From positions 372,001 through 436,000 of the forward strand of contig JAWPHD010000095.1 of NCBI GenBank assembly GCA_037043455.1: DNA of 64,000 nt, given 5' to 3'. Position numbers and translations under genes: made by a program. This DNA comes from Cyrtodaria siliqua (Eukaryota; Mollusca; Bivalvia; Adapedonta; Hiatellidae). Shown in pieces: positions 3,612 through 58,831 of this stretch (position 1 is its first letter; every line of letters starts with the position of its first letter). The notes under the pieces are model-generated. The model worked only from the letters and a program-made list of their open reading frames with translations, was not told the DNA's origin and did not search any database.

Positions 3612-3734
3612 ATATAAACGAATGTTCAACTGCCAATGGGGGCTGTCATGAAGATGCCAATTGCACAAATACTGCTGGATCCCATACATGTAATTGTAAA
3701 GACGGATTCACCGGAAACGGAAAAGAGTGTACAG
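3612..3734 (+). CDS. Calcium-binding EGF-like exon 1 (gene A)
   Basis: One complete EGF module on a symmetric phase 1-1 exon of 123 bp (41 codons), bordered by TCAG and GTATAA. The junction codon reads Asp, giving DINEC, the usual calcium-ligand start, followed by six cysteines and the N-x4-aromatic-like spacing CTNTAGSHTC, with His where Tyr or Phe is common. The module ends GNGKECT. EGF modules of this class act in extracellular matrix or receptor ectodomains. Because exon phases match, any number of copies can be spliced in frame. The open frame extends past the exon into the intron, which is not coding. The gene's 5' end was not found and may lie left of the window. Confidence 0.85.
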
Positions 3735-5047: not shown

Positions 5048-5170
5048 ATATAAACGAATGTTCGACTGCCAATGGGGACTGTCATGAAGATGCCAATTGC
5101 ACAAATACCGCTGGATCCCATACATGTTATTGTAAAGACGGATTCACCGGAAATGGAAAAGAGTGTACAG
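5048..5170 (+). CDS. Calcium-binding EGF-like exon 2 (gene A)
   Basis: Same 123-bp phase 1-1 exon design, acceptor ATCAG and donor GTATTA. The translation is fully open with six cysteines. Differences from exon 1 are GGC to GDC after the first loop and CNC to CYC near the end. The surrounding intron is the one unit in which the shared 74-codon intronic frame is interrupted, while the EGF exon itself stays intact, consistent with selection only on the exon. Confidence 0.82.
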
Positions 5171-6479
5171 GTATTACTACGTTTATTATGATACAAATAC
5201 ATAAAGGCAGATACAGAAATATATGTAAATTTATTGTGGTACTAACAGAACTCAATCGCCTCGATTCAGTTGTTCTCATTTGCGTTGACGGGCCATCATC
5301 GCGTTACTCTATTATTGAACATTCAGGTCTCCCTACACAGTGCATGTTTTACTGTGTTGGCCAATATGAATAAAGATTACAGGGCCATTCCGAACAGGAC
5401 ATTTCCAAGCTAAAAGCTACTTTTTATGTAACCAAGTCCTTTGCCGACACAAAACTGTACAAAATCTGGTACGTTGACCAGTTTTTTTTGTTTAATTTGA
5501 GTGGTGTCCGCCATTGCACTATTTTGGGCTTTACCTTCAGAGATTGGACCAGAATTCCTTCTCTTCTTCAACACCCATCAAACTGCCATATTTTGTAGGC
5601 AGGATCATCTAATAGCTGCACATCCAATTTGAGACTCTGTTCATTTCACCTGCAACAACAATAAACATATCTGTCAGCAATTATTAGAAATATTAAAAAC
5701 CAAAGAACACACTATTACTTTTTAAAGCGTACGATTTATCCTACCGTGGGGTTCAAGGGGGCTAGCTGTGTAGTGAGACTGAAAACACTGATAAATGAGA
5801 TGAATTAACTATCGTCTCTCAGTTTTGTGGTCGTACTCTATATGTCTCTGTGAATGCAACTGCTCTGATTGTTCTATACAATTCTGGTTACATTCTGAGG
5901 TGTTTCTAATTATGTATTAAAGAAATAAGTTGTAGAGGATGTGCAAAGTTACTGTTTTCTGATGTATGAAAAGTATACCAAATTCGGTATTAATAAGCAA
6001 TATAAAACTGCAACATGTAATATGATCGTGGTCCATGTGATGTAATAAATTACTTCAATTTTGAAAGAAGCCCTTATACAGAAAACAATATCACGAGGCA
6101 TTCTTAATAAATAGCGGGACGAAAATATGAAATTCGATATGATTTCAATCTTTAAATGTATCCATAGATTAATTTTCCCGTCCGCTTTAACTGATGTGGC
6201 TGTTCGTGAGTACAATTCTGGATACTTCCTGAGGTATTCCTTATTATGTATTTAAGAAATACATTGTATATTTTGTGCAACATTACTGTTTCCAGATTTT
6301 CTCCTCAGAAAAAGTAGACCATTATCATTATACACATTTTTAATTGTAATTTATATGAACTGAAAATAAGCGGTGGTAAGTTTTAATTGGCTAATGCGAA
6401 ATTGCTAGACCTATAAAACGACGTAAACGATTAATATCAGGATTAACATTTACATAAGTCGTTTGTTTCATTTTGTCAG

Positions 6480-6602
6480 ATATAAACGAATGTTCAACTG
6501 CCAATGGGGGCTGTCATGAAGATGCCAATTGCACAAATGCCACTGGATCCCATATATGTAATTGCAAAGACGGATTCACCGGAAATGGAATAGAGTGTAC
6601 AG
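6480..6602 (+). CDS. Calcium-binding EGF-like exon 3 (gene A)
   Basis: Third intact 123-bp phase 1-1 EGF exon (acceptor GTCAG, donor GTATTA). It begins DINECSTANGG, has all six cysteines, and carries CTNATGSHICNC and GNGIECT. It is nearly identical to its neighbours, as expected of a recent tandem duplicate. Confidence 0.83.
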
Positions 6603-7921
6603 GTATTACTACGTTTATTATCCTAATACAAATACATAAAGGTAGATACAGAAATATATCTAAATTTATTGTGGTATTAACAGAACGCAATCACCTAGAT
6701 TCAGTTGTTCTCTTTTGCGTGGACGAGACATCATCGCGTCAATCTATTATTGAACATTCAGGTCTCCCTACACAGTGCATTTTAATATGTTGGCCAATAT
6801 GAATAAAGTTTACAGGGCCATTCCGAACAGGACATTTCCATGCTAAAAGCTACTTTTTATATAACCAATAATTTTGCCCACACAAAACTGTACACAATCT
6901 GGTACGTTGACCAGTTTTTTTTTTATAATTTGAGTGGTCTCCGTCCTTGCACTATTTTGTGCTTTAACCCAAGAGGCTGGACCAGAATTCCTACTCTTCT
7001 TCAACACCCATCGAACTGCCATATTTTGTAGGCAGGGTCATCTAATAGCTGCTCATCCAATTTCAGACTCTGTTCATTGCACCTGCAACAACAATAAACA
7101 TATCTGTCAGCAATTATTAAAAATATTAAAAACCAAAGAACACACTCTTACGTTTTAAAGCGTAACAATTATCCTACCGTGGGTTTCAAGGGAGCTAGCT
7201 ATGTAGTGAGACAGGAAAAACTGACAAATTAGATGAATTAACTATCGTCTCTCAGTTTTGTGGTCATACTCTAGATTTCTCTGTGAATGCAACTGCTCTG
7301 GTTGTTCAATACAATGCTGGTTACATTCTGAGGTGTTTGTAATTATGTATTAAAAAAATAAGTTGTAGAGGATGTGCAAAGTTACTGTTTTCTGATGTTT
7401 GAGAAGCATACCAAATTCTATATTAATAAGCAATATCAAACTGCAATGTGTAATATGATCGTGGTCCATAGGATGTAATATATTACTTCAAATGTTGAAA
7501 TTCCTTATACAGAAAACAATATCATGAGGCATTCTCTATAAATAGCGGGACGAAAATATGAAATTCGATACAGATTTCAATCTTTAAAAGTATCCATAGA
7601 TTAATTTTCCCGTCCGCTTTAACTGATGTGGCTGTTCGTGAGTACAATTCTGGATACTTCCTGAGGTATTCCTTATTATGTATTTAGGGAATACACTGTA
7701 TATTTTGTGCAACATTATTGTTTCCAGATTTCTTGTACAGAAAAATTAGACCAACCCATATCATTATCACTATACACATTTTTAATTGCATGTTATATGA
7801 ACTTAAAATTAGCGATGATAAGTTTTAATTGGCTAATGCGAAATTGCTAGAACTATAAAACGACGTAAACGATTAATATCAGGATTAACATTAACATAAG
7901 TCATTTGTTTCATTTTGTCAG

Positions 7922-8044
7922 ATATAAACGAATGTTCAACTACCAATGGGGGCTGTCATGAAGATGCCAATTGCACAAATACCGATGGATCCCATACATG
8001 TAATTGTAAAGACGGATTCAACGGAAATGGAATAGAGTGTACAG
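7922..8044 (+). CDS. Calcium-binding EGF-like exon 4 (gene A)
   Basis: Fourth intact EGF exon of the array (acceptor GTCAG, donor GTATTA). It reads DINECSTTNGG at the start, CTNTDGSHTCNC in the middle and FNGNGIECT at the end, with six cysteines. The next in-phase exon downstream is the Thr-rich exon at 10700, whose first codon is completed by the same phase 1 G. Confidence 0.83.
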
Positions 8045-9318
8045 GTATTACTACGTTTATTATGCTAATACAAATACATAAAGGTAGATACAGAAATATA
8101 TCTAAATTTATTGTGGTACTAACAGAACGCAATCACCTCGATTCAGTTGTTCTCTTTTGCGGTGATCGGACATCATCGCGTCACTCTATTATTGAACATT
8201 CAGGTCTCCCTACACAGTGCATTTTTACTATGTTGGCCAATATGAATAAAGTTTACAGGTCCATTCCGAACAGGACATTTCCATGCTAAAAGCTACTTTT
8301 TATATAACCAATTCTTTTGCCCACACAAAACTGTACAAAATCTGGTACGTTGACCAGTTTTTTTTGTTTAATTTGAGTGGTGTCCGCCATTGCACTATTT
8401 TTGGCTTTAACTTCAGATGTTGGACCAAAATTCCTACTCTTCTTCAACACCCATCGAACTGCCATATTTTGTAGGCAGGGTCATCGAATAGCTGCATATC
8501 CAATTTCAGACTCTGTTCATTTCACCTGCAAAAACAATAAACATATCTGTCAGCAATTATTAAAAATCTTTATAACCAAAGAACACACAACTACTTTGTA
8601 AAGCGTAAGAATTATCCTACCGTGGGTTTCAAGGGAGCTAGCTGTGTAGTGAGACTGTAAACACTGATAAATGAGATGCATTAACTATCGTCTCTCAGTT
8701 TTAAGGTCGTATTCTAGATTTCTCTGTGGATGCAACTGCTCCGGTCGTTCAATACAATTCTGATTACATTCTGTGGTGTTTCTAATTATGTATTAAAGAA
8801 ATAAGTTGTAGAGGATATGCAAAGTTACTGTTTTCAGATGTTTGAGATGCATTCCAAATTCGATATTAATAAGCAATATAAAACTGCAATGTGTAATATG
8901 ATCTTGGTCCATGTGATGTAATATATTACTTCAAATTTTGAAAGCCCTTTTACAGAAATCAATATCTCGAGGTATTCTTAATAAATAGCGGGACGAAAAT
9001 ATGAAATTCGATACAGTTTTCAATCTTTAAAAGTATCCATAGATTAATTTCCCCTTCAGCTTTAACTGATGTGGCTGTTCGTGAGTACAATTCTGGATAC
9101 TTCTTGAGGTATTCCTTATTATAAATTGTATATTTTATGCAACATTACTGTTTCCAGATTTCTTCTACAGAAAAAGTAGACCAACCCATATCATTATCAC
9201 TTTACACATTTGTAATTGTGTTATATGAACTTAAAATAAGCGGCGATAAGTTTTTAATTCCCTAATGCGAAATTGCTAGAACTATAAAACGACGTTAACG
9301 AATAATATCAGGATTATT

Positions 9319-10699
9319 AAGTAATATGAGTGAATTATATAATATGATTGAATGATACCAGTCATTTGCATATGTGATATCATGAACCTGTACTGAAAAG
9401 CATTCAAAATGAAAAGCAAAACAAAAATATAGAAAGATCTTAACAGTTACACAGAAGCCTTGCCATGTTTTTTCACATATTTGTCTTTACCTTTCAACCA
9501 AATGAATATGTTGCTACTCTTTACTTCGAATTAGAACAACATGACCTATTAAATACAATAAATTTCATATTAACATTTCTCAGTTAGAAAAGTCCCTGTA
9601 CAAATGACCAGCTGTAACCCGTTGCTGGTTGTATAGCATTTTTATTAGGGATATCAGTTTCCTCAAATGGTGGTCAGAGCAGCAGGGGTGGTGATTTGTG
9701 GCTGATAAGCCAGGGCATAAAATTCAGCCAAATTTTGGGATAAAATGCTAGACTGTATAATTTTTATAAAGTTTATTGCTCGTTTTCTGTTTTATCGATT
9801 TTAGCGAACATTATCATGTTATTCAGTACTTTGAAAGTGATTAAATTTATGAAATAACTAGTTCAAAACATCAGTTGCAAGCATTGGTATGATTTACTCC
9901 CCTATAAACAATAAGTTTTAATACTTTAATAGATTTGGGGCAAAACATACACACGTTACATTTGCAAATAATGACAAAACAATGACCGAAGATATCTCTG
10001 TATGGTATGTGATACACATCGAAATGTTGATGGGGTTTGCAAGCGTCTGGCCATAGAAAAGGGCAAATATAACTATTTATATTTTTGTCTTCCAAAATAT
10101 GAATAACGTTCTTATTTTTGATAACTTATAAATGCTTTATAAAATCCTGGCGTAAAGTACAAACAAATTGTTCCATTTACCTGATAATTTCTTAATATTG
10201 CGACAAAATGCACACTTTTAATTCGAATGGTATATTTCTGTCTTTAAATGAAAACACATTTAAATTACAAACACAGTTTCTAATAATTATTATTTACATT
10301 TGCAGGAACTATTTGGGCCAATATGCTAGGTTCCTACCCTCAAATTGTCCATGGCGTTAGTTTCGTAACAATTACACCATATCGCGTTCACCACGCACGA
10401 GTACCATTCATAAAAGTTCATTACTATTAGTAGTGAGAAATAAAATCGACTGTATGCATTATAGATGAAAAAAGTCAAAACTGTGACAAACATCCGTGAC
10501 GGATTCAAATAAATATGACGTTTGCATTATTTCTTTTTAGGAGCGATTACCTTGAAAGAACGTCCTACGTGTGCGTATGTATATTCAGTGTAAAGAACAA
10601 ATAGCAGAAAACAGTTGAGATCATCAATGTATTTTTCAGTGTATTCATACATTTTGCCTAATTTCGTTATGAAAATAACACACGTTCTTATATTTCTAG
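9319..10699. other. Intron of gene A, nothing recognised
   Basis: AT-rich sequence without a convincing exon. A weak acceptor (TTTGCAG) at about 10304 is followed by roughly 120 bp of open frame, but no good donor follows and no domain is recognisable. The short minus-strand frames at 9871-10095 and 10326-10508 look random. Confidence 0.5.
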
Positions 10700-11045
10700 T
10701 GGAGACGACAACAACTACGACAACCACCATTTCAACTACGCCGTTTAATACCACTCCACCTTATGTTACAACTTCAGCTTCTAAAATAAATCTTAGCTCC
10801 GATACACCTGCCATTAAAACGTCTTCTGTTAGTATTCCGACAACAAACGCTCATTTTACTACTACTTATACTACCACTCCTACAATCACAACTATTCCTA
10901 CTTCTACAAATACTGCCAGAACTACTACTCCCTCAACCATTACTACTGCCACCACAACTTCCAGTCCCATTTCTACCACTTTCATTACCACGTCAAATAA
11001 CTCTACTACCTCTTCCATTATCACCTTTAATCCAACTACTACCAA
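10700..11045 (+). pseudogene. Thr/Ser-rich mucin-like stalk exon, 5' part (gene A), interrupted
   Basis: After the acceptor TATTTCTAG the phase 1 frame continues from an EGF-type exon and reads VETTTTTTTTISTTPF and onward as Thr, Ser, Pro and Ile with almost no charged residue. This is the composition of an O-glycosylated stalk such as that between the ectodomain and membrane of LDL-receptor family and mucin-like proteins. At about 11046 the frame runs into the 3' tail of a minus-oriented Naiad element and ends at a TAA at 11095-11097. Thr-rich coding resumes on the far side at about 11520, so the insertion lies inside the exon. If the assembled allele is correct, the protein would be truncated before its membrane anchor. 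Confidence 0.7.
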
Positions 11046-11502
11046 AAGAAATATAAAAAGATCGGACAGGGAAAGTAGCATTCAAGGAGGACAGTAAACC
11101 ACAAAACACAGAAACAGACACGCAAACAGACAAACACGAAGGCAAAAGCAATAATAAATGCAAACGACATCACAAACACAAAAAGGGTTGACAATAGGGC
11201 TACCGCCTTGGAACGGTCAGTGGCAAAGTAGGCCACTGGGGGTTTAAACCGGTTCTAGGGTGCACCAAACCTCACACTTACCCTACTGTCATCCCATTAA
11301 AACAGGACAGTGTAAATAAAGAAATCCCCGCCATGATCTAATCTCTAACCAACAAGGCAGCATCAATAGGCAATATAAGTAAAACACAAATATGCTCGTG
11401 TAAATATAATACAAAAAAAACAATAGCTTAGAAAGCCACTTGAAGGTACTCAATGACTTTGCAGAAGCCAGAGCAGTAAGAGAATAAACCATTAAGGGCA
11501 CG
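11046..11502 (-). mobile_element. Naiad 3' fragment inserted into the stalk exon
   Basis: Matches the 3' end of the long Naiad copy at 16541-21038 in reverse orientation. It starts with the element tail (AAGAAATATAAAAAGATCGG on plus) and runs to AAGGGCACG, so it is 5'-truncated and holds only untranslated sequence. No clean target-site duplication is visible. It landed in ACN-codon low-complexity DNA, in line with the published microsatellite bias of Naiads. Confidence 0.88.
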
Positions 11503-13018
11503 TACTTCCTCTGCATATACCAATTCTACTATATTTCCATTCAGAACTACAGCAAACATCATCACGACTGATCATACGACCGCTATTATCCCGACCTCAC
11601 ATACTACCCGTAACGTCACTTATTCTCTCAATACCTCTACTAATTTGACCATCATCACTACTACCACTAGCACTAATACTACTCCCTCTACGATTATTAC
11701 TAACGCCACCACTTCTACTCCCACTTCCACTTCTAAACACACCTAGACTATTTCTGAAATTCACTACTACCACCACTATTACTACTCCCTTTACCAATAT
11801 AACTAACTCCACCATATCTACTCCCACCACTACTTCAACTCCTACCACCACTTCTACTCCTACATTCACTTCTACGCTCACTACGACTACTTCTGACATC
11901 ACCACTACTACCACCACTATTACCACACCCTCTACCAATATTAATAACACGACGTCTTCTGCAGCCACCACCACTAATCCCACCACCGCCATTACTACCA
12001 CCACCACTATCACCACAAATACACCCATAACAATGACTCCTACAAACGGCAATACCACCATCACCACTACTATTCCCTCTGCCACTATTACTCCCACCAC
12101 CAGTGTTTCACTCAGTACTACTCCCACCCCCGCTACTTCTACCATCACCACATTACCCTCTACCACTATTACTCCCACCACCAGTGTTTCACCCACAATT
12201 ACTCCCACCACCGCTATTTCTACCATCCCCACATTACCCTCTACAACTATTACTCACTACACCACTTCTACTTCCACCACCAATAGTATTTCAACCAACG
12301 CTCCTAAATTCACTATAACTACTCCCACCACCGCCGCTGCTATTGCCTCACCCACTGACCGTCCCACCACCAGCTCTACACCCACAACTAATCCCACCAC
12401 TGGTTCTAATACCACGACCACATTACCCTATACCAATATTGCTCACAACACTACTTATACTCCGACCACCACCTATATTTCAACCACCACTCCTAAATCT
12501 ACTCCCACCACATCCACTACTACCACCAACATTACTACTCCCTCTACCACTACACTTTCCATCACAACTACTATTCCCATCATCATAAATACACCCACCA
12601 CCACTTCCACATGCACCGCAATTACCACTACTACATCAACCAAAATTATAACTTCCTAAACCACTACTACTTACACAGCAATTAAGATTTACAACTCTAC
12701 TAATCCCAACGCGAATATAATTCCTATCGTAATTACAACTACTAATACTCCCACAACCACCACCACCACAGCTAATCCCATCACCACAACTTATTCTTTC
12801 ATAATTTCCACTCCCACTCCTACAACGTCTGTAGATCCATTCACCAATAAAATTAAGCATTTTTCCTCTTCCACAGAGAACAAACCAGTGCACGTTAAAG
12901 AAAACGATGACGGAAGAAACGCGAAACCTTTTCCAGTACTGTCTATAGTCGCCGTTGTTGCCGGAGTCCTGGTGTTCATTCTGCTCATCATAGTAGTGAG
13001 TGTTGTTGTTATTAAAAG
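11503..13018 (+). pseudogene. Mucin-like stalk 3' part plus transmembrane segment (gene A)
   Basis: Thr/Pro/Ser-rich coding resumes near 11520 (NSTIFPFRTTANIITTDHTT), shifts frame near 11744 and then stays in one frame to 13018. That frame contains a single TAA at 12657-12659. It carries many near-repeats of TITPTTSVSP type. The frame then reads a juxtamembrane segment (KPVHVKENDDGRNAK), a hydrophobic helix of about 22 residues (from VLSIVAVVAGVLVFILL) and a basic stop-transfer (IKR). It ends at a perfect donor AAAAG/GTAAGT in phase 2. The topology is type I membrane. The Naiad insertion, the frameshift and the stop suggest loss of function, or haplotype or assembly errors in a low-complexity exon. 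The plus strand is almost free of G, so the antisense Val-rich frames here are shadows. Confidence 0.7.
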
Positions 13019-13573
13019 GTAAGTTGACTAGCAAAACTTGAGTTGACAATGTTTAACTTCGCTGCCATTTATTTTTAATACAGTTTCATAAGGTGTTATT
13101 TTTCTGAATGTTTTTGTTTGTTACACAAATGTGTACATAGCAATGTGTATTTCAAAATGTAAGATTTATTAAAAAAATAAATAAAACATTTTAGACATTG
13201 TTTTATCTTGTACAGACAAAGCAACTAACTTTTGTGACAAAGACAAGTAGTTTCCATCACATGTTCGTAGAAAAAAATCAATGCAATAGTTGCCACACAC
13301 ATTTGATTATTAAACAACACATACGTGTTTTTTATCGGTCAGTTACGAATATGGATAAAAGTTTCATTTCCATGTGGATGTCAAACCTATGGATATAAAC
13401 CGCGTTATAGTATACTTCAATAATAATTATTCAACTTCTGTATTTGAATACTTGTTTAACGAGGGTGTTCTTGACGACAGTTGTTAAATATTAAATAATA
13501 TATAATGTAGTTTATGTTCTACGAATGAACAAATATCATATGGAGCATTTTACACGGTACCCCACTTTTTCAG

Positions 13574-17286: not shown

Positions 17287-17340
17287 AAGTGCAATGCTAA
17301 GAGGTGCAGTTGTTGCAATTATTTATCTTGCAAGTCCACC
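17287..17340 (+). pseudogene. Naiad N-terminal Cys cluster (KCNxKRCxCC)
   Basis: Reads KCNAKRCSCCNYLSCKS just upstream of the nuclease. The second subfamily at 39.5 kb reads KCNSKRCICCSHLTYKS at the same place. This metal-binding-looking block is conserved between families although both copies are broken. Confidence 0.75.
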
Positions 17341-17392
17341 ATTAAATCAGCTGTTAATGGTAGATTGTTTATGTCTAGCTTCAAATGTTGAT

Positions 17393-17395
17393 TGA
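17393..17395 (+). other. In-frame TGA aligned to Cys of the other subfamily
   Basis: In the nuclease frame this reads D-TGA-RTYYVIYVLT. The 39.4 kb copy reads D-C-KTTHVIYVLT, so UGA and UGU exchange at one site. A one-base shift lies just upstream, so the frame assignment is slightly uncertain. Confidence 0.55.
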
Positions 17396-17930
17396 CGTAC
17401 ATATTACGTCATTTATGTTCTGACTTGAAATTCACCACGTTGCGGTATACAATATGTTGGACAAACTGGTCGATCCTTAAAAGTTCGATTTCGTGAACAC
17501 AAATATAATGCTAAAAAGTTAAAATATTACTTGTACCAACATTTTTGTCATTCAGGTCATCATTTTAATAACGTAACTGTTCAACCGGTTGAATATATAT
17601 TTTTTGATAATGATGCTACTGAAAGCTTTAAAATAAAAGCTAGACATATTGCAGAACTTAAATGGATGAAAAACTTACAGACACCTTATCAACTCGGCCT
17701 TAATGACAATATTTATCAAGAAGGAAATATTTCTAAAGATCCTAATATTGACATTTTTTCTATATTTTCTATTCGAAAGCGTAAATCTAGGTCTCATGGT
17801 CTGAGGCGTAATGGTAACATCAAACGTAAATCGGGTGTAATTATTTCTGTCGCCGATTTACATACTATTTTTAAACAGTCTGGAAAGCACTCTATGCTTT
17901 CACGGCTTACCCATTTCTTCACTAAAGTTG
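17396..17930 (+). pseudogene. Naiad GIY-YIG endonuclease domain
   Basis: GIY-YIG nucleases nick target DNA for retroelement integration. The frame reads VIYVLT-(UGA)-NSPRCGIQYVGQT, then GRSLKVRFREHKYNAKK, a His-rich CHSGHH segment, and ARHIAELKWMKNLQTPYQLG. These correspond to the YVG strand, the catalytic Arg region (R-x3-H-type) and the Glu-containing helix (IAELKW) of Penelope-type nucleases. The first residue of the zinc-ligand CCHH set, normally Cys, is encoded here by TGA (17426-17428), and the same TGA occurs in the diverged copy at 39429-39431. A single-base shift near 17386-17392 separates this frame from the Cys cluster upstream. A linker follows, and the frame shifts again near 17930 into the RT part. 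Confidence 0.88.
17426..17428 (+). other. Conserved in-frame TGA, candidate selenocysteine codon (nuclease CCHH position)
   Basis: VLT-TGA-NSPRCGIQYVG here and VLT-TGA-NVPRCGIQYVG at 39431-39429 on minus. Classical Penelope nucleases have Cys at this site. Confidence 0.75.
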
Positions 17931-18686
17931 ATCGACGAGGAAGCCGATTCAATTTTCATTCGTACAGATCCCTTGTATAACACTGCTTCCATAGTTCAAA
18001 GCTACACACAGCATGTTTTCCGACCCCATATTGACAAGGAGTCTGATCACGTCAGGCATTTTCAAAAACTACTATATATTAATAAAGGTATTGATTTCAC
18101 TGAGATGCCTAGTATTTTTCGAGATACTCATGTAGTTGATTCTATCCCAAAATATTTCAAAAATTCCGAAAGTCCTGTAATTTGTTATAAGTATAAAAAG
18201 CCTATTAGAAATATTATTTTCAACTACAACAAAATAGTTTCTGACCTTGATATAGTACATAATACTCCTAAGGAATGTGAATGCAACATATCAAAATTTT
18301 GCTATGCTCCAGCAGGTCATGTCATCACTGGTAATTTTGATATTGTTGATAAACGTATTCGGCATTTGTTTTCGAAAGGTCCTAAACATAGATTACCTTC
18401 AACTATCGATTTTAATGCCTGTCGTGCCCAGATCGCCCACTCCAGTGAAGATTTTAGTATAAAATGGTGTCATAGAGAACATGCGGACCCAAACTCGTTT
18501 TCTATTTGGAAAAAGTCAATTCTTAGACTTATAGATACACGTATTAACTTTTATAATGCTAACCCCTCTTTAGATCCTCCGAGACCTAGGTTTTCCTTTC
18601 GTAATTTAAAATCGGGAATTCAGGAAATTCATAATAAATTTGTTTTAGTTCCTGCAGATAAAGCAGCTAATAATGTAATTATTGTT

Positions 18687-18689
18687 TGA
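18687..18689 (+). other. Conserved in-frame TGA, candidate selenocysteine codon (RT block 1)
   Basis: TGA lies between NNVIIV and RLHYVNV. The copy on minus at 63722-63720 has the same codon in an otherwise open RT frame, and the diverged copy at 38213-38211 has TGA after NNIIII. Confidence 0.75.
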
Positions 18690-19615
18690 CGCCTACATTA
18701 CGTCAATGTTTTATCTCTGGAACTCGGCAGCACCAATTCGTATACTCCAGTTAATTCTACTGAGGATGATGTTGTTTCCGCACATATCACTCGGTGCACT
18801 ACTTTCAAGGCTGGGGTAAACGATAAGCAAAATAAACTAAAATGCCTACTATATACTGGATTCCTAAATTACATAAAAATCCGTATAAGGCTCGCTTTAT
18901 TTCGAATTCTAGTCCCTGCACCACAACAAACATCTCCAAACTTTTAACTTCTTGTCTGACTGCGTTACACTATATTGTGATAAAACTTATTAAAACTCTG
19001 GGATTAATTTATTTTGGTCTATAAAACTTTCAGGAGACGTTCTTGATAAAATGTTCAATAAAGGTTAAGTTTCACCAATAAGCACCTTTGACTTCTTACC
19101 ACATCACCATATTAAAGACAAGCTAATTTCTCTTATTCAAAAAATATTCGCTAGAGAAAATACTACATTTTTGGCATGTAATAATATTAAAGCGTTTTTT
19201 ACTAACGGCAGTTTAGACAATTATACTATGTGGACTTGCTATGAAGTGTGTGAAGCACTCATCTTCCTATTAGATAATATTTTCGTCAGGTATGGAACCA
19301 CCGTTTATAGACAAATTGTTGGTATCCCTATGGGTACGAACTGTGCACCACTTGTCGCAGATTTGTTTTTATTTTGCTATGAAAGAGATTCCATGTTGAG
19401 TCTTTCACCAGATACCCGGGCAGATGTTACTGAAGCTTTAATGACACCTTTCGGTTGACATATTGAACATTGACAACCCTTTCTTTCCAACTATGGTTAA
19501 TAATATTTATCCTAAAGAACTTCAGCTTAACAAAGCTAATATATCTGATAATAACGCTTCTTTTCTTGATTAAGATCTCTCGATTGAAAATGGTGATGAA
19601 AAATGGGCTAGGAAA

Positions 19616-19694
19616 ATGTGCAGCCAGACCGGGGCTCGAACCCGGGACCTTCGGACTACCGTTCCGATGCTCTACCGACTGAGCTAGCCGGCCG
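19616..19694 (-). other. tRNA-like sequence in left LTR
   Basis: On minus: A-box TAGCTCAGTCGGTAGAGC, perfect 5-bp anticodon stem TCGGA/TCCGA with loop ACGGTAG (anticodon read as GGU, C at position 33), and T arm CCGGG/CCCGG with TTCGAGC. The acceptor stem pairs imperfectly. It is inside a mobile element, so a tRNA-derived promoter is more likely than a functional tRNA. Confidence 0.7.
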
Positions 19695-19866
19695 GAAATG
19701 CAACATCAATCTACCTGTTAGATATCCATAACCGTGACACACTCCCCCTACAGACGAAAATTCGTCCTCGAATTTCCATGGGTACAGAGAATCATTTCTA
19801 ATGTTTCTCGGAGTTTACTCAGTCACGGTCCCACGTTTGGCGCCAAATGTCACAGGACTAGAAAAA

Positions 19867-19946
19867 TGTGCAGCCAGACCGGGGCTCGAACCCGGGACCT
19901 TCGGACTACCGTTCCGATGCTCTACCGACAGAGCTAGCCGGCCGGA
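19867..19946 (-). other. tRNA-like sequence in right LTR
   Basis: Same cloverleaf as in the left LTR with one D-loop change (GCTCTGTCGGTAGAGC). Both copies keep D, anticodon and T stems intact, so the structure was recently either functional or freshly duplicated. Confidence 0.7.
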
Positions 19947-20510
19947 CAATGCAACATCAATATACCTGTTGGATATCCATAACCGTGACATATGACAAGA
20001 GAGATGATTTTAATTTTGACATTGTTAATTATCCCCACTTGGATGGGGATGTTCCCCGAGCAACTTCCTTCTTATGGGGTGTATGTGTCTCAACTTATTC
20101 GTTTTTCAAGAGCTTGTACTCGAGTTGAGGAATTTAATATTCGTTATCTTTGTATAACTAAAAAGCTACTCAATCAGGGTTACCGTTATCATAAACTTCG
20201 TAAAACTTTGCAAACTTTTATTATCGTAACCCTGATCTTCTTTCCAAATATAAAAGTAATTTAAGGACTCTTCTGCGACAAGGACTATCACAACCTGACT
20301 TCTATGGTGATGTGATTTATAAACTTCGTAAGATTCTTGGTCATGATCAGTTTCATACTATCTTTGTAAACCTGTTAAAAAAAGTTTATCAAAAGAGGTT
20401 ATGACCCTATCATTTTGCAACGTACTGCATGCCTGGTGGTGGACCCTTTTACAGTTCGCCACTATTCTTTCCTCTTTAACTATATGATGACCGGACAGGC
20501 TGTGGACCCT

Positions 20511-20554
20511 ATGATGACGCCTACCTAAAGCCCATTGGGACGGTGGCGTTTGAT
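20511..20554 (+). promoter_or_regulatory. SECIS-like element at the end of the Naiad ORF
   Basis: SECIS elements direct selenocysteine insertion at UGA. The sequence has ATGA (20511-20514), then 12 nt (TGACGCCTACCT), AA, 22 nt, then TGAT (20551-20554). The UGA/GA parts form the tandem G.A quartet flanked by U.U. Helix II is GACGCC.ACC with GGU.GGCGUU (one bulged U), and the apical loop holds UAAA next to a small CCC/GGG stem, as in type II SECIS. The ORF stop TAA (20526-20528) is the apical loop itself, so the 5' strand of the SECIS is coding (MMTPT). The copy at 26556-26599 keeps the fold with a compensatory change. Confidence 0.7.
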
Positions 20555-21038
20555 GTTTGTCTATTATCTTTCTTGTTGTGCCCTTAATGGTTTATTCTCT
20601 TGTTGCTCTGGCTTCTGCCAAGTCATTGAGTACCTTCATTGTGGCTTTCTGGGCTATTGCTTTTTGCATTATATTTACACGAGCATATTTGTGTTTTACT
20701 TATATTGCCTGTTGATGCTGCATTGTTGGTTAAAGATTAGATCATGGCGGGGATTTCTTTATTTACATTGTCCTGTTTTAATGGGATGACAGTAGGGTAA
20801 GTGTGAGGTTTGGTGCACCCTAGAGCCGGTTTAAACCCCCAGTGGCCTACTTTGCCACTGGCCGTTCCAAGGCGGTAGCCCTATTGTCAACCCTTTTGTG
20901 TTTGTGATGTCGTTTGCATTTATTTTTATTTTCGCCTTCTTGTTTGTCTGTTTGCGTGTTTGTTTCTGTGTTTTGTGGTTGACTGTCCTCCTTGAATGTT
21001 ATTTTCCCTGTCCGATCTTTTTATATTTCTTTTTACTG

Positions 21039-21411
21039 TAGTATTTACAAAAAAATAAAAATACAAATTTATAGGAGGAAGAAAGAATTGAAATAGACTA
21101 TATGTAAATACAAGGGTAAAAGCGGCCATAATTTTGATAAAAAAACAACAACAAGAAAACAGAACAGAACCTAGCTGGACGAAATAGATAAAAATGCCAC
21201 AGCCATGTGCAGTTACATGATTTAGACGATTTCGAAATACATGTTTACAAACAAAACATTAAATCTTTTTGTAAGTACAGTGCTCAAATTCACCAAACAT
21301 GACTGAGAAAATGAATAGACTCCATAATATATTTTTGAAAATGGCCATAAAACCATTTTTAAAATATGCATGCAAATACAAATAAACATCAAACAAATGC
21401 AACTTGTCATT
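21039..21411. other. Non-coding stretch
   Basis: AT-rich flank of the Naiad copy with no recognised feature. The minus frame at 21222-21524 only reflects the repeats that follow. Confidence 0.4.
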
Positions 21412-21580
21412 ATGAATGAAAACTCAGATAATCTGGAGCGTGACACTTGTAATGAATGAATACTGATACTCTGGAGCTTGACACATGTTATGAATGAAAA
21501 CTCAGATAATCTCGAGCTTGACACATGTTATAAATAAAACCTCAGATAATCTGGAGCTTGACACTTGTTATCAATGAATA
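21412..21580 (+). repeat. About 40-bp tandem repeat, 4 copies
   Basis: The unit core is CTCAGATAATCTGGAGCTTG followed by ACACTTGTTATGAATGAAAA, with small changes between copies. Confidence 0.85.
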
Positions 21581-21584
21581 GATT

Positions 21585-22137
21585 TTGATCAAAACCTGGT
21601 CAAACACGGGCTTTCCAAATTAGATGACGTGATGACGTCACAACGGTCAGTGATCTGGCCATTTTGGATGGCATCATGTTGTTAAAACTGTCAGCGTTGA
21701 CACTGATAGATTTTATAGTAAAACAACTTAACAAATGCGATCAGTGAAACAAGAAACGTTTTTTATAACATTGTGACGTCAAGACGTAATGACGTAGAGA
21801 TACGTGTTAACGTTCTTGCACAACTAGACCATGAATTCTAAAATCTGAAAGTTTTGATCAAATCAAAACCTGGTCAAACACGGGCTTTCCAAATTAGATG
21901 ACGTGATGACGTCACAACGGTCAGTGATCTGGCCATTTTGGATGACATCATGTTGTTAAAACTGTCAGCGTTGACACTGATTGATTTTATAGTAAAACAA
22001 CTTAACAAATGCGATCAGTGAAACAAGAAACGTTTTTTATAACATTGTGACGTCAAGACGTCATGACGTAGAGATACGTGTTAACGTTCTTGCACAACTA
22101 GACCATGAATTCTACAATCTGAAAGTTTTGATCAAAT
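21585..22137 (+). repeat. Two nearly identical 274-bp tandem copies rich in TGACGTCA
   Basis: AAAACCTGGTCAAACACGGG starts at 21591 and again at 21865. Only about four substitutions separate the copies, so the duplication is recent. Each unit carries GATGACGTCAC, GACGTCAAGACGT and AATGACGTAG-type sites. Confidence 0.92.
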
Positions 22138-22270
22138 CCAATCTTAAATACAGAATATATAACCATAACAAGATTTCAGCATATACTATATTCCACACAG
22201 AATAACAATCCAGTGGTGTATAATGTCTAAACATGTTTCTTTATTTCATCTTATCATTAATAATAATAAT

Positions 22271-22317
22271 TGGAACGGTCAGTTGGGGTTTAAACCGGGT
22301 TCTAGGATGCACCAAAC
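22271..22317 (-). mobile_element. Very short Naiad 3' UTR fragment
   Basis: GGAACGGTCAGT, then GGGTTTAAACCGG and TTCTAGGATGCACCAAAC match the Naiad 3' UTR with an internal deletion of about 16 bp. Confidence 0.7.
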
Positions 22318-22539
22318 ATTGTGAAGTCATATTGAACGCTTTTGGAGTAAATATATATTTTGAGAGAATTTGCCTCTCTTTAAAAAAATTAGTTCTAAGC
22401 TCAAAATTGTTTTAATTTTATATGTTATATGAATGCTAGAAACTGTAATAATAAATCACAAAATGTGAAAAATAAAATTTGCATACATTCCACCTTTTGT
22501 GAGTGTGAGTAGGAACTTCCACATAGGAAATTGTTAAGC
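22318..22539. other. Non-coding stretch
   Basis: No gene recognised between the short Naiad fragment and the tRNA-headed SINE. Confidence 0.4.
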
Positions 22540-22795
22540 AGATGTCTGAAATTGTGCATAGAGGTAGAGCGTCCGCCTTGAATGCGGAGGATTATGGTTC
22601 AATCCCCGGCCGGGCAATAACAATGACTTTATAAAAATAGTGGCATATAAAGGGTACTGCTAGGACTGGTCGACCCGGTGTCCGTATAATGTGACTGGGT
22701 GTGGTATCTTGTCATGTGTCTACGACGTGGTAGTGTGTTATATAGTCAGGGCTTTATAAACGTCACAGCACAAACGTTCCAGTCACCAATTTAAT
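22540..22795 (+). mobile_element. tRNA-derived SINE candidate
   Basis: The head has a tRNA-like stretch with GAGGTAGAGCGTCC (A-box side), a CCGC/GCGG anticodon stem and GGTTCAATCCCC (B box). About 170 bp of body follow, containing GACCCGGTGTCCGTATAATG and GACTGGGTGTGG, which looks like a conserved SINE central domain. Target duplication not resolved. Confidence 0.6.
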
Positions 22796-23430
22796 TGTAT
22801 ATACTAATTCAAAATAAATCAACAGAAAACGTATATTTTATCAAAGTACATTCCTATTTAAATTTGTCCTAATTCTAACAGTTAAATGTAACAGAATTGA
22901 AATTGCCAAAACATGAGTCTAGCGGACTGGTGATTGCAAGCTTAAAAGTGCCTAAAACATAGACATGACTTCAACTCAAGACTTGCTTATAGACTGCCTC
23001 GGAACACGGAGCGGGCCCATTTTATACATGATCTCCCGCGGCAACAGCCCTGAGAATCTGTCCAGCCCGCCACATGGTTTCTGACTTATTGCCGCTAATG
23101 TGGCCAACATTCAATCTCTTGTGACACCAGTATGTGGTTCAGCTTTTGATTAGACACAAATTATACTCATAAATAGCAGCCATATGGCTTATGGATGACA
23201 ACAAAGTCAGCGCTACCGGTCTTTTTAATGAGCTTGTTGGACATATAATATATTCTCAGTACACAGCACCTCAGATATTAATTATATGGCTGTATTTATG
23301 TAACTGACCAACTTAAATGCACGCACGTGTCGCACAGCTGCCATAAGCCAAGTACTGACGCCGCTACCATCATTTCGGTCAACAATATGCTTAACCAATA
23401 TAATGAAACACGAAGTCTATATTCTGTATA
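22796..23430. other. Non-coding stretch
   Basis: No gene or known repeat recognised. A GC-richer part near 23000-23120 has no open frame of note. Confidence 0.4.
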
Positions 23431-23880
23431 GAAAAACGAATAAGACACATATACCCCATAAGAAGTTTCTCATGGAACATCCCCATCTAATTGGGAATAA
23501 TTAACAATATCAAAATTAAAATCATCTCTCTTGTCATAGATTTTGCTAATTATTTCACCAATTTCAATAGAGAGATGTAAATCGAGAAAAAATCGTTAGT
23601 ATCAGAAATATTAGCTTTGTTAAGTTGAAGTTCTTTAGGATATATACACTACTCAACTTTTATAATCGGTAAATTTTCAAAGAATTATATATTTTCTAAT
23701 TTTCATATTTTCATAACTAGCGATTTATAAATCTTAATCTGCCTTGATTGGACTAAACCCTTGTTGATAAACTAGGTTTCGGTGATTTCCATTTTTAGTA
23801 TTCGTGTTATTTTCAAAAAACCTAGGTGACCGATTATAAAAGTTGAGTAGTGTATTATTAACCATAGTAGAAAAGAAAGA
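23431..23880 (-). mobile_element. Naiad RT fragment split by a MITE
   Basis: Minus-oriented thumb-side RT sequence (ATCCCCATCTAATTGGGAATAA and AAATCATCTCTCTTGTCATAG on plus) runs to 23645. It is interrupted at GGATA by the element at 23646-23853 and resumes TTATTAACCATAGTAGAAAAG, exactly the continuation seen in the 56.4 kb copy. Confidence 0.85.
23646..23853. mobile_element. MITE with perfect 25-bp terminal inverted repeats, Tc1/mariner-like
   Basis: ACACTACTCAACTTTTATAATCGGT at 23646-23670 is the exact reverse complement of 23829-23853. TA lies next to both ends, consistent with TA target duplication into the Naiad fragment. The 158-bp interior is non-coding. Confidence 0.85.
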
Positions 23881-24319
23881 AGTTCGAAAACCAGCCGGAA
23901 CAGACCAGTAACACCAGACTTATGGTCCTCAATTTTCTTAAATATGCAGTATGCTATGTTGGGGATAGTGGGTCGTGGGTTTAAGTTTTTATATTTGTTT
24001 ATGACCCAAGGGGTGCAACAAGGTCTCACAAATTGGTTCCGCCCATTGGGTCCCAGATGGTGTTAATCGGGTTAAAATGTGCATATCTTGTCCAGTTGGT
24101 AACTCTAAATTTGACGCTCCAGTTTTGGGGTTTTGCCTGACTGGTTAAAGCCGTTTATCTTGTGTCTATATAGTTGGATTCGAAAAATATGTAAGCAACA
24201 TATCTATAAACCTCATCGTCAGTAGGTTTAGAAACGGTGTACATATGAATAATAAAAGGTGGCTGTTTGTTGGCTGAATAGCTGCTTTAAAGTACAATGT
24301 CTAACTACCCAATTTGATT

Positions 24320-24900
24320 TTTGTTATGAATGAGGTCAACTTTTCATTTTGAATAAAACATTTCCAGGCTAAAAATATATTTTTGTAAATACAGGCACTT
24401 TGTTTTAATGTTAGTTATGCCAGGTAATGCACTATATAGGGTTTCACTCCAGAGTTTGTACCTAAATTAATGCTCCTCTTCAACAGCCACGTATATGTTA
24501 TATTTCGCTGTCAGTGTTGTCTAATCGTAATGCGTCTAATCTCACATTGTGTTCTTCTCACCTGCAACAGAAAAGTATCCATGAGCAACTATTTAAATAA
24601 ATGTCTAAAAAGTAGTTCTAAAAGTCTAACAGGATATGCAGCTTTCACAGAGCACAGACAACCACACACACGCATTAAACCAAACAACAAGTACAATGTT
24701 AATACTAAGTAAGGCATGTGGCATCTGAAACACAAACGGATTGACAACAAACCAAATACAACCGAATAACATCCCTTATTTTGTATTGCGCAAGTAATAC
24801 GGTCACATGTAAGGGAACAACTGTGTAGTGATACCTAAAGCGTTAAACACGCCTACTGTAATTTGATGGCTAATACTCTAGATCACTGTCTTGTCTGGTT
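24320..24900 (+). repeat. Old copy of the gene A intron repeat
   Basis: The order ACATTTCCAGGCTAAAA, ATGCACTATATAGGG.TT.CACTCCAGAG, CTCTTCAACAGCCAC, TTCTCACCTGCAACA, and after 24780 AAGGGA.CAACTGTGTAGTGA and ACTCTAGAT matches the intron part of the 1.44 kb array units, with heavy divergence. A Naiad tail (24625-24760) interrupts it. No EGF exon is present. Confidence 0.75.
24625..24760 (-). mobile_element. Naiad tail fragment (older subfamily)
   Basis: GGATATGCAGCTTTCACAG, then ACACACGCATTAAACCAAAC matches the tail seen at 43660-43790. It lies inside the old intron-repeat copy. Confidence 0.75.
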
Positions 24901-25309
24901 ACTCAATAAGTCAATTTGTTTTTCAAGCATTCGTACAGTAAACAATAATACATACGTTTATATTTCCTTAACGTTAAACAGCACAATAAGTTACATGTTT
25001 AGTGTCTGGAAAGATGTATCTCATTGCAAGATTTGTTTTTGTGATTTCGATTTTACAGAACTTTATAGTTGTGTACGGTAAGTGTATCTTTTGTTACTAA
25101 TTTATTTATAAATGCTGTCAGACGACTATGACGGTGCGTTTTATTTTGTCATAAAGACCAAATATCAGGAGAACTTATTGTATGGCATTTAGTCCGTCCG
25201 TTGTAAAACAATTGGTAAATGTGGCATCTACTCTTAATACCAGTCAACCCATATTTAATTACAATATTTCTTGGGTGGTGTCCTTTTTGATGTGAGCTAC
25301 CTTGTAAAC

Positions 25310-26290
25310 ATTTGTACAAGACAAGAGGGCCAAGATGGCCCTGAATCGATCAACTGCGGATCTTTGCAATGATGAAAAAAATGTCCTCTCGCAAACGCTG
25401 ATTGACAATGTTTTTAAGTCTTTCCTTATGTAAGTCTATGTAAAAACATGCAAAATCTCTACATACAAACTTAGGTCCCAGGGGTTGCAGCCTTCTTGGA
25501 CTACAGGGACTTCAAATGAGCCAACTTGATATACCAGGGGTTAGCAATCATTAATAATAATAAAGAACACGAGAACGAATGGCTCTTATATCAAGGGGTT
25601 TCATGACTAAATTCCTTTCAATACCTTGTTACAAGTGCAAATAAGTTTATGTAAAACATGCAGAATCTTTATACACAATCTTTACAAAAATTAACCCCTC
25701 AAAAACCCGCATCCAAACAGGAAACAATAATAAAAATGAAGAATTAAAAAAAAGAAGAAAAGATTACCTCCAGTGGGATTTGAACCCATGGTAGAGGACC
25801 ATAAGCTTATAGTAAATGCAAAATATTAAACCTCTGGCTACTGTAGTTTCATTTGAAGAAGAATATTTGTTATTCCCTACAAGTCTATGTAAAACATTTG
25901 ACCCCTGGGGCGGGACCAAATGTGACCCAAGGGTCACCATTTGAACAAACTTGGTAGAGGACTATCAGCCTATAGCAAACGCAAAACATTAAACCTCTGG
26001 CTCTTGTAATTTCAGAGAAGATGATTTTTTAGAGTTGTCCCTATATAGGTCTAAGTAAAACATGCAAAATCTTTACAAAATTTAGAAAAAATAAACAAAA
26101 GAAAAAATGCATCCAAAGGAAACAATCATAAAAATGAAGAATAAAAAAAATCAATAAAAAGAACACACAAAAAAACAACAACACGCCAGTGGGATTTTAG
26201 CTTCCCAGTGTACAATAAGTAATCAGTGGGATTTGAACCCACGGTCTTAGCTTCCCAGTGTACAGTCAATAAGTAATTAAAGAGTTTTCT
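25310..26290. repeat. Low-copy AT-rich repeat with reversed tRNA B-box motifs
   Basis: AGTGGGATTTGAACCCA occurs at about 25768 and 26223, with a partial copy near 26189 (AGTGGGATTTTAGCTTCC). TTAGCTTCCCAGTGTACA appears twice within 60 bp near 26200-26265. Reverse complements read GGGTTCAAATCCCAC, a T-arm. No complete tRNA could be folded and no gene was found. Confidence 0.45.
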
Positions 26291-26351
26291 ATGGCGGCCA
26301 TTCGTGTTTACCTAATTTAAACAATTTAAAAAGCATTCCCCTAAGGATCAT

Positions 26352-26922
26352 CCATGTGAGGTTTGGTAATATCGTAATATCGTTGGTCATGATCACTTTC
26401 ATGCTACCTTTGTAACACGTGTTAAAAGGTTTATCAAAATAGGTTATGACCCTATCATTTTGCAACGCACTGCATGCTTGGTGGGGGACCCATTTACAGT
26501 TCGCCGCTATGCTTTCCTCTTTAATTGTACGATGACCGGACAGGCTGTGGACCCTATGATGACGTCTACCTAAAGTCCTAAAGGACGGTGACGTTTGATG
26601 TTTGTCTGCAATCTTTTCTTGTCGTGCCCTCAATGGGTTATTTTCTTGTTGCTCTGACTTCTGCCAAGTCACTGAGTACCTTATTTCTAGGCTGGTTTTT
26701 CTAGTTTTTTTTATTTATTTATATATACACGAGCATCTTTGTGTTATATTGCCTATTAATGCTGCTTTGTTAGTTAGAGAATAGCTCATGGCGAGGATTT
26801 CTTTATTTACACTGTCCTGTTTTATTGCGATGGCAGTAGGGTAAGTGTGAGATTGATTCACGCTAGAACCTGGTTTAAACCCCCAGTGGTCTTTTTTGCC
26901 ATTGACCGTTCCAAGGCGGTTT
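26352..26922 (+). mobile_element. Naiad fragment: RT C-terminus, SECIS and 3' UTR
   Basis: Reads IIxxGHDHFHATFV...GYDPIILQRTACLVGDPFTVRRYAF and ends VDPMMTST with TAA. It then follows the 3' UTR to TTCCAAGGCGG, where it breaks off. At the RTACLV site Cys is TGC. Confidence 0.88.
26556..26599 (+). promoter_or_regulatory. SECIS-like element, second Naiad copy, with compensatory change
   Basis: Same 44-nt layout as 20511-20554: ATGA, 12 nt, AA, 22 nt, TGAT. Helix II is GACGUC.ACC with GGU.GACGUU. Compared with the first copy a C became U and its partner G became A, so the pair is kept. The apical part GUCC/GGAC is also paired. Confidence 0.72.
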
Positions 26923-27329
26923 ATATGCAAAGATTGGTGCTTTTGTCAAACAATGCACATTGTTTTCACCAATCTGACCCACTAGGAGACAAAACTAGTG
27001 TTGCTTTTGCCACCTCGACCGTTATCATCTTTGGAAGCTGAACGCTAAATTTGGTTGAATTCCGTTCAGAGGTAACGACCCCGCATTACCCTACCATCCC
27101 ATCCACGCTCTAACCATCCCATCGGCAGACTTCAAAGTTTAAAATAATAAAAGTGTATGCTATTTATCTGTCATAGACAAATATATATACCAAGTTATTT
27201 GCAATGATGTAATTTCTTCAAGTTTAAAATGAAAGTAGAAACAAGTTGATTTTGTAAGATTAAATATATATTTTATTTTTGAGGAATAGTGGTATTTCGG
27301 TATTTGTAATACTAAACTAATGCTAAAAG

Positions 27330-29486: not shown

Positions 29487-29492
29487 TTTATT
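29487..29492 (-). promoter_or_regulatory. Polyadenylation hexamer overlapping the stop codon
   Basis: The minus strand reads GTC TAA TAA AGC, so AATAAA starts within the stop codon. If used, the 3' UTR would be extremely short; a downstream signal could be used instead. Confidence 0.35.
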
Positions 29493-31538
29493 AGACGAGA
29501 TTATAGATGTGTACTATTTCCCCTAGTCCAACGACCACCATTTTATTTCCCATTGGCTCGATAGCGACATCTTGCGGCGATATCGGAACAAGGATCGATT
29601 TGATTAGAGTGCCGTCTGGTGCAATCTGTAGAACCTGTCCCGAGTCGTGCGAGCAGACGTAAAGATTTCCTTGGCAATCGAGTGCCATCCCGCGTAGATC
29701 CGTCCGTCGATACGTATTATGGAAAACCTGCTTTCCGGCGCTATTGTAACACGTAATGGCGTCGCGATCCGTCATATACATGTAGTTTTTAACCGGATCA
29801 AACGCGACACCACCCAATCCTTTGTAATCGCGCTTACGTGAAATTGTTCTTTCAACGCGGCCATTCTTCTCAACAATGGACAGGCTGCGACACGCCTTCG
29901 AGTAGCAGATTCCCATTATTTTGGCGCCGAAGCCAGTAATTCTGTACGCTTTGAAGGAAGTACGGAGTTCTCGAAGAGGTGACAGGAACTTCCCTTCGAT
30001 AGACAATAACTTGATGAGGCACTCTTCCGGAAGAGCAATGGCCGTTGTTTTATCTGGAAGCAAGCAGACACCTCGTGGTGGTGAATTCAGCTTCGTTTGG
30101 GATCGAAACATTCCGAAGTGATCAAACAGCTTCACGGCGCAGTTGTTAAAATCAGAGAGAATAACGTCTCCTGCATCCGAAATGTCTACTGAATTAAAGA
30201 TGCAGCCATTTCGATCTCCTTTTATTTTGCCGTTGATGATACCATTCTTTTGAGCTGAACAGTTGCGAAACGCTTTGGTGATTTCGCGTTTCTCGGCAAT
30301 CTCGACGAATCCCATACGATCTATCATCTTCGCCATGCGTACAAGATTCTCGTCTGCTGTGAAGACCAGTTCGACTTCCTTGTAGTCAATTCTTTCGTCG
30401 TCAGCCATCGCTTCGTATTTCTCGCACTCGTCCTTCATCGTCTGCGTAGCGACAACCTGTTGATAGTCCGATCCGGTATCCAGGGTGTTCTCCATAATAG
30501 TCAGGGAGCTGTGTATGGAGTCTCGGAGGCCACGGCTCCTGTCGATCTTGGACTGAAGAATGTCCTCGTAGTCGCGAGAGACAGCGTCGATTTCATCTCT
30601 CATTTTCTCTTCCAGTTCTTCTAGAAGTTGTACAACAGACATCTTTAACTTCGCCACGTCGTCTAATATCCCTTCCTTACGTGCTAGTAACCGCTTCTTG
30701 CTGCTTTCCTTCGTTGCTAATACGCTGTCGACAATGTTAATGCATTGACGTAAACGTTGTGCTAAGGTCTGATTTGTTCTCTTAGATCGGCTGTTCCGCG
30801 GCGTTTTGTCTACCCCAATGACAGTGTCGCAACGGCGGTGTCCCACCGCGACGCACGTGCTGCAGACGGAACACTGGTGATCGTGGCAATACATATCCAG
30901 CAGCTTCCCGCGGTGCTCGGGACATAATTCATGCGCCTGCAGCATGCGTTTCGGTTTCTCTTTGACATCATCTATGTCCATCAGAGCGTGACTCTTTGTT
31001 ATTTTCATGCCTCGGTTTTGGTGCACATATCACACATCGCTTCGCGGCACGTCGGGCACCAGTACATAGCTGGGCAGTTTTCGTCGTTCTCCATGCACGG
31101 GTCACAGCGACGTTCATTTCGCAGCTGCAACTGCATGCTCCTATCCGCTCTTTCCGTTTGATCCTCGACAGATGATCCACGCCGACTTGATAACAGCGGC
31201 ATGGTGCCATAAATTGACATACTGGGTATCTGTTGTGCCCACTGTTCAGCTGGACTCAATGCTTCGGGCTTCGGTGGCGGGTTCAATTCGCGACAGATTG
31301 GACAAGGGATGAATCTTTTTACGTTCGATCCCGGAAGTTTGGCGATGTAAATGTCAAGACAAGTCTCACAGAAAGAGTGCAGGCACGTTAGACTTTTGGG
31401 ATTCTTAAAACGGCTGTGACAAAGCTGACAGTTTAGTAAATCGTCCGGGAATGCACTGAGTTTCCGGGCAGAAACACGAGTCTCCGTCAGTTTGAAAGTC
31501 TCTCCTATTTCCGAATCGTTGTCCATACGCACGGACAT
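29491..31538 (-). CDS. Intronless tripartite-motif (RING, two B-boxes, coiled coil, NHL-like propeller) protein, one frameshift
   Basis: From ATG at 31538 the first 177 codons give a RING finger (Cys37, Cys40, Cys52, His54, Cys57, Cys60, Cys79, Cys82) and B-box 1 (CDPCMENDENC...WCPTC...CDMC). The frame closes at 31005, but a frame opening at 31026 continues with KITKSHALMDIDDVKEK, B-box 2 (CPEHRGKLLDMYCHDHQC...CVAVGHRRC), a coiled coil of about 100 residues, and a C-terminal half of NHL/propeller-like repeats (NGCIFNSVDISDAGDVILSD, GLGGVAFDPVKN, RGMALDCQGNLYV). It ends at TAA 29493-29491. One inserted base near 31015 (ACC-GA to ACC-nGA) would restore a protein of about 685 residues, the usual size for TRIM2/3/56-like E3 ligases that are expanded in bivalves. 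The break may be a sequencing error or a young pseudogene. AATAAA overlaps the stop. Confidence 0.85.
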
Positions 31539-58744: not shown

Positions 58745-58831
58745 GTAAAGAAAAAGGAAGCATAAATGTAATCATTTTAGATTGACAGTTTTTACAGATA
58801 GTTTTATCCCTCCGTTTATTAGTCCTATCCT

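Follow-up and report, generated by a model that had tools for sequence, protein, structure and literature searches.

A SECIS element overlapping the stop codon of an open reading frame in a probable Penelope-like retrotransposon of the bivalve Cyrtodaria siliqua

The window analysed here is a stretch of 64,000 nucleotides from the genome of Cyrtodaria siliqua (contig JAWPHD010000095.1, positions 372,001 to 436,000), taken from an assembly (GCA_037043455.1) whose 26,948 contigs add up to 2.88 Gb; positions below are those of the window. It contains, at 17378-21040 on the plus strand, a broken copy of a Naiad-like Penelope-like element, which was delimited by comparing the window with itself, by copies found genome-wide and by the reading of one relative, L095; 17378 is the start of the stretch that was analysed rather than a mapped 5' boundary. 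Among the other features of the window, a calcium-binding EGF-like exon (DINECSTANGGCHEDANC) recurs at 3590-8289 (+) in four open frames that resemble one another and are spaced by about 1.4 kb, an arrangement that points to tandem duplication. Open frames that are mucin-like and rich in Thr occupy 10594-13022 (+), with a transmembrane-like stretch after them, and long open reading frames at 29491-31538 (-) resemble a TRIM-type protein, with RING-like, B-box-like and NHL-like stretches. Pieces at 41645-42184 and 58327-58899 (+) are similar to YWTD propeller exons of the LDL-receptor type. A plasmid, viral or phage context of the window was also considered, and it was set aside after searches for it gave no match.

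The element is recognized by a succession of motifs on the plus strand. A Cys-rich stretch, CNAKRCSCCNYLSC (17290-17331), precedes the endonuclease-like region and is read here in a different frame; a 201-base query matched about 215 bases in most of 40 scored relatives, so the window copy lacks about 14 bases here. The GIY-YIG-like region CGIQYVGQTGRSLKVRFREHKY follows at 17441-17506, assigned tentatively from its motif, and between it and the reverse transcriptase (RT) is the CxC-like motif KECECNISKFC (18270-18302). The RT core, GIPMGTNCAPLVADLFLFCYERD, is at 19321-19389. The order is therefore that of a Cys-rich stretch, GIY-YIG-like CGIQYVGQT, CxC KECECN, RT core GIPMGTNCAPLVAD with YLDD, and a tail running to UAA, and it is common to the window copy and L095; we take it to be the order of Naiad Penelope-like elements, a tentative name given by motifs, the type being otherwise characterized by pseudo-LTRs and a bias towards insertion at microsatellites. 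Sequence searches of Pfam and PDB with the element gave no credible match, the lines returned for VP4, DUF7296, PAGK and XisI being read as chance, and structure prediction for the RT part of another copy, L039, made from the single sequence with no alignment, had a mean pLDDT of 35.6.

The RT region of the window copy is interrupted at 19597-19990 (+), where the alignments of other copies break (the copy at 62-64 kb, L005 and L019). The inserted piece consists of two units that are 95.6% identical, each with a tRNA-like gene in minus-strand orientation, matched by Rfam at 19621-19693 (-) and 19871-19943 (-), and it is probably a tRNA-derived repeat.

Relatives of the element are numerous, with first-look candidates across the genome numbering 4,317 for one 3' query, 9,990 for another and 2,214 in a further search; 40 candidates were scored for each of the two 3' queries. 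Every copy that was read at length (the window copy, L034, L039 and L095) has frame breaks or rearrangements. Judging from its motifs and their order, the abundant retrotransposon that hosts the hairpin described next is most likely a Penelope-like element of the Naiad type.

Near the 3' end of this copy, at 20503-20563 (+), lies a SECIS element. The initial annotation had proposed one here from its core spacing, and direct reading of the sequence bears this out, with AUGA at 20511-20514, 12 nt, AA at 20527-20528, 22 nt and UGAU at 20551-20554, so that the AUGA/UGAU quartet is present at the base of helix II. In the predicted fold the apical AAA (20527-20529) is unpaired; an unpaired apical A motif (AAR) is given as a SECIS feature in the literature (PMC8704476). 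The Rfam model SECIS_1 (RF00031) matches the interval with 38.0 bits (E 4.7e-4 for the 64 kb window), above its curated gathering score of 35 bits, and only three Rfam matches in the whole window reach gathering level, this one and the two tRNAs. The match to an independent covariance model rules out a chance hairpin. The minimum-energy fold is of SECIS shape and corresponds to a form 2 SECIS with an apical mini-helix (-18.6 kcal/mol, z -2.2, with 7 of 200 shuffled sequences as good); with wider flanks z was -1.4 and 21 of 200 shuffles were as good. The same annotation had named a better SECIS further down the UTR as a finding that would count against it; within 20000-27000, at E<=5, the copy at 26.5 kb is the only other SECIS that Rfam lists.

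With a model derived from 15 copies, of which five lie in the window, six were detected there, namely the four already singled out in the initial annotation and two more, at 53.7 and 44.0 kb. One of the six reaches the Rfam gathering score, and the Rfam matches quoted for three of the others come from a laxer threshold. These are the copies at 26546-26610 (or 26548-26607; +), with 34.1 bits, at 55312-55372 (or 55313-55372; -), with 30.8 bits, and at 53663-53727 (or 53666-53725; -), a member of another subfamily with 20.8 bits (E 4.1). The copy at 62196-62255 (-) is absent from the Rfam matches even when E<=5 is allowed, and the decayed copy at 44046-44109 (-), which has a 4-base insertion and TAT in place of the stop, gave no Rfam match at the gathering threshold, the sole threshold applied there. 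Thus, among the three homologs proposed alongside the 20.5 kb element, two were listed by Rfam below the cut-off and the third was not listed. The copy at 26.5 kb folds into the SECIS shape at -21.4 kcal/mol (z -3.4, 0 of 200 shuffles as good) and differs from that at 20.5 kb by the C-G to U-A change, with MMTPT becoming MMTST, just as had been described. L068, of the type found at 53.7 kb, also has the SECIS shape, yet its fold (-13.3 kcal/mol, z -0.75, 43 of 200 shuffles as good) is no better than that of shuffled sequences.

In an alignment of 45 copies AUGA is present in 38 (GUGA in five more), UAAA in 39 and UGAU in 41, and the SECIS core is kept across several subfamilies. The hairpin occurs in three main forms, ACGCCUACC/GGUGGCGU with apex CCC/GGG, ACGUCUACC/GGUGACGU with apex GUCC/GGAC and ACGUCUACC/GGUAGCGU with apex UCCU/AGGA, each of which keeps UAA; in the predicted folds all three retain helix II, which carries a bulge of one base and varies slightly in register. 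Standard pairs fill 91.3% of the cells of the paired columns over the 45 aligned rows, against 90.0% after shuffling and 34.6-45.6% when the partners are slid by up to 3 columns. The covariation score of 0.115 (0.090 when shuffled) was above all 500 shuffles, although it reflects few independent events because the copies are related; two pairs had changed on both sides, a number that 134 of the 500 shuffles equalled or exceeded. Counting covarying pairs, which had been suggested as a check on the hairpin, gave a score beyond the shuffles together with both-sided changes within their range, and covariation of the hairpin pairs across copies is modest.

It could be argued that the hairpin mainly serves the element's own RT, for recognition or priming at the 3' end, and that its likeness to a SECIS arose by convergence. 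The position of the hairpin, inside the 3' region that the sampled copies seem to retain, would suit such a role, but the likeness extends to the specific AUGA/UGAU quartet, the AAA, the 12-nt spacing and the Rfam score, and the in-frame UGAs upstream, to be described below, would need a SECIS. We consider this explanation extremely improbable.

The unusual property of the SECIS is its position. The stop codon UAA at 20526-20528 (+) supplies, with its two A's, the beginning of the apical AAA, and the C-terminal end of the open reading frame, CLVVDPFTVRHYSFLFNYMMTGQAVDPMMTPT-stop (20430-20528, +), is the same in L095 and L039. L095 (G000:C1163, minus strand) has one frame that runs from NSGINLFW, ahead of the RT core, through YLDD into FNCTMTGQAVDPMMTPT and TAA, the part upstream of that frame being in other frames, and a 328-residue frame in L039 likewise leads into FNCTMTGQAVDPMMTPT-TAA with one UGA inside. 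In these copies the 5' arm and the apical UAA are inside the open frame, and the SECIS is not wholly in the 3' UTR. Among 81 distinct copies sampled, 75 retain TAA and the others have TAT (2), TAC (2), TTA and TGA; the sample was picked as best matches to window or L016 queries, a choice that favours retention. The first set, of 62 places, holds 61 distinct copies, as L016 and L040 are the same copy, and has TAA in 56 of them; the second, of 20 more diverse copies with no overlap with the first, has it in 19. These observations agree with the earlier claim that the SECIS terminates the open reading frame, and we conclude that the SECIS does overlap the end of that frame.

The earlier claim went further in stating that the SECIS doubles as coding sequence. 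Here the open frame stands and is presumably translated, into a peptide whose function is at most putative, and the last 16 codons carry no sign of amino-acid constraint. Comparison of the majority codons of the last 59 in the two large subfamilies revealed 11 that differ; six of the first seven are synonymous, and the last four, all within the final 16 codons, are non-synonymous. Pairwise pN/pS over the 59 codons is 0.56, only slightly lower than the 0.64 and 0.84 of the shifted frames, and over the last 24 codons it is 1.41. The tail thus forms an open frame as far as the stop within the SECIS, with no visible constraint on its peptide sequence. RNA structure probably dominates in the tail.

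Alternatively, the protein might end earlier in the mature mRNA, through splicing or an alternative end, so that the SECIS would in effect belong to the 3' UTR as in other animal mRNAs, and the lack of amino-acid constraint in the last 16 codons favours this view. The frame from YLDD to TAA is nevertheless continuous in L095 and L039, the only stop being the one UGA in L039, and the divergent L016 copy keeps an open tail and TAA (MMPYI-stop) while the 3' arm of its SECIS is damaged. An earlier end of the protein is, in our judgement, very unlikely.

A SECIS would be expected to act on UGA codons upstream of it, and reading the relatives with UGA as a residue brought out three such sites in the plus strand, which were counted in copies that are mostly close relatives. 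The first (SNVD-U-RT, 17393-17395) is TGA in 19 of the 21 rows aligned, which come from 20 loci, the exceptions being CGA in L110 and one GTA, which apparently comes from a second, frame-broken piece of L112. The second (YVLT-U-N.PRCGIQYVGQT, 17426-17428) is TGA in 19 of 20 rows, with AGA in L104. For the third (NNVIIV-U-RLHY, 18687-18689) 21 loci were given, of which L117, L118 and L125 had no alignment across the site and were left out, and TGA is found in 16 of the 18 aligned rows, with TAA in L129 and L131; an earlier, partly redundant set had TGA in 15 of 18. The departures CGA, AGA and TAA are each one base from TGA, GTA being the exception. With the insertion discounted, the third site is about 1.4 kb and the first two are about 2.7 kb upstream of the SECIS. 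The copy at 62-64 kb has its third site at 63708-63740 (-), and the upstream stretches of the 53.7 kb type (L071-L074) are rearranged, with the UGA sites outside them. In that earlier set one of the five rows at the first site reads TGT (Cys), and it belongs to the divergent copy at 39.4 kb. This relative (39476-37444, -), with about 68% DNA identity, has Cys at the first site and UGA at the second and third.

Two further positions with repeated TGA were considered and rejected. At the FN-C codon UGA had appeared in 11 of 47 rows, and direct reading of 62 places (one copy twice) gave TGT in 48, TAT in 2, TGA in 1 and no match in 11; TGA at another residue (9 of 43 rows) came from rows of 32-55% identity, which we read as another frame. 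As a separate observation, the FNC Cys codon near the end of the open reading frame is UGA in L045:3854-4888 (+), a piece that is joined to an unrelated repetitive open stretch.

The genome also contains tRNA-Sec-like genes, with 17 matches, of which 7 are over the cut-off and the best has 79.7 bits; the same search in control genomes gave matches in 14 of 14, over the cut-off in 5. One or two tRNA-Sec genes per genome would be expected, and some of the seven genes over the cut-off may be repeat copies.

An alternative explanation of the UGAs is that they are real stops in a non-autonomous family spread by an intact relative, in which case the SECIS would be a passenger or a fossil. The broken state of the copies read at length and the thousands of candidate places in the genome (from 2,214 to 9,990 at first look) are what such a family would produce. 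On the other hand, the same three UGAs recur, while the other positions with repeated TGA are minority codons or lie in rows of low identity and another frame; several subfamilies retain the SECIS core, and the genome carries tRNA-Sec-like genes. We find it very improbable that the UGAs are real stops of such a family.

Taken together, we think it highly likely that the element is a selenoprotein-encoding retrotransposon in which the three UGAs are read as selenocysteine and a single SECIS, overlapping the stop codon, serves them all. Computation shows the SECIS itself, UGAs at fixed sites, a frame that stays open into the stop and tRNA-Sec-like genes. The mRNA would encode a fusion of an endonuclease-like domain and an RT. 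As many as three selenocysteines would be part of it, of which two belong to the GIY-YIG-like region and the third precedes the RT, and the one SECIS at the end of the open reading frame would serve all three sites, presumably through its use by SBP2 and EFSec. The last coding triplets would form its 5' arm and UAA the first two A's of its apical motif, the tail of the element being translated up to that codon. The initial annotation, whose SECIS overlap is confirmed here, had mentioned neither the element itself nor the upstream UGAs.

If this is the case, the ribosome that terminates at UAA would sit over the apex and helix II, transiently melting the latter, and it would have to leave before the SECIS could refold for the next ribosome. 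It is conceivable, though rather doubtful, that the overlap acts as a built-in governor, where the terminating ribosome melts the SECIS and selenocysteine insertion on the same mRNA pauses until refolding. Such a governor would tie the output of full-length RT to a low ribosome load, may pass the RNA from translation to reverse transcription, and would mean that a SECIS is regulated by the termination of its own open reading frame. Irrespective of the governor, an abundant retrotransposon appears to encode a selenium-containing enzyme, as predicted from its reading frame and SECIS. Such a retrotransposon, with its stop codon in the apical motif of the SECIS, would show that genomic SECIS elements can overlap coding sequence and would provide a natural setting in which to see whether SECIS function suffers from terminating ribosomes; it is also a warning that automatic annotation will truncate proteins of this kind, ending them at the first UGA.

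Animal SECIS elements usually lie wholly in the 3' UTR, a location that is usual and not required. The element at 20503-20563 scores above gathering with SECIS_1 and differs in its position relative to the stop. In the titles and abstract openings surveyed we found no animal gene with a SECIS overlapping its stop codon, which leaves room for one in the articles themselves, and among the papers listed by searches for selenoprotein Penelope-like elements none dealt with them. Selenocysteine-containing Naiads, a kind of Penelope-like element, were reportedly described from clams and spiders by Craig et al. (Mol Biol Evol, 2021). These Naiads reportedly have an N-terminal GIY-YIG endonuclease, a CxC motif, a C-terminal RT, several Sec codons and a very high copy number, and the anatomy of the present element fits these features. 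The overlap with the stop in the loop is possibly new; it would already be known if the 2021 Naiad paper describes it.

A SECIS inside an open reading frame, that of the fowlpox virus GPX4, was reportedly described by Mix, Lobanov and Gladyshev in 2007. In two reviews the fowlpox SECIS is reported to work from within the open reading frame and to be functional in mammalian cells (PMC6769590, PMC8310308), and the second places all of its cellular counterparts in the 3' UTR (PMC8310308). A SECIS in coding sequence is common to both systems, whereas the fowlpox case is a virus gene with the SECIS inside its open reading frame and ours belongs to a genomic retrotransposon whose stop lies in the apical loop, far downstream of three UGAs. 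Selenoprotein P-type mRNAs, according to a further article, have several recoded UGAs and two SECIS elements in the 3' UTR (PMC5133445); on that description an mRNA with multiple UGAs is shared with the present element, in which one SECIS was found, and this one overlaps the open reading frame.
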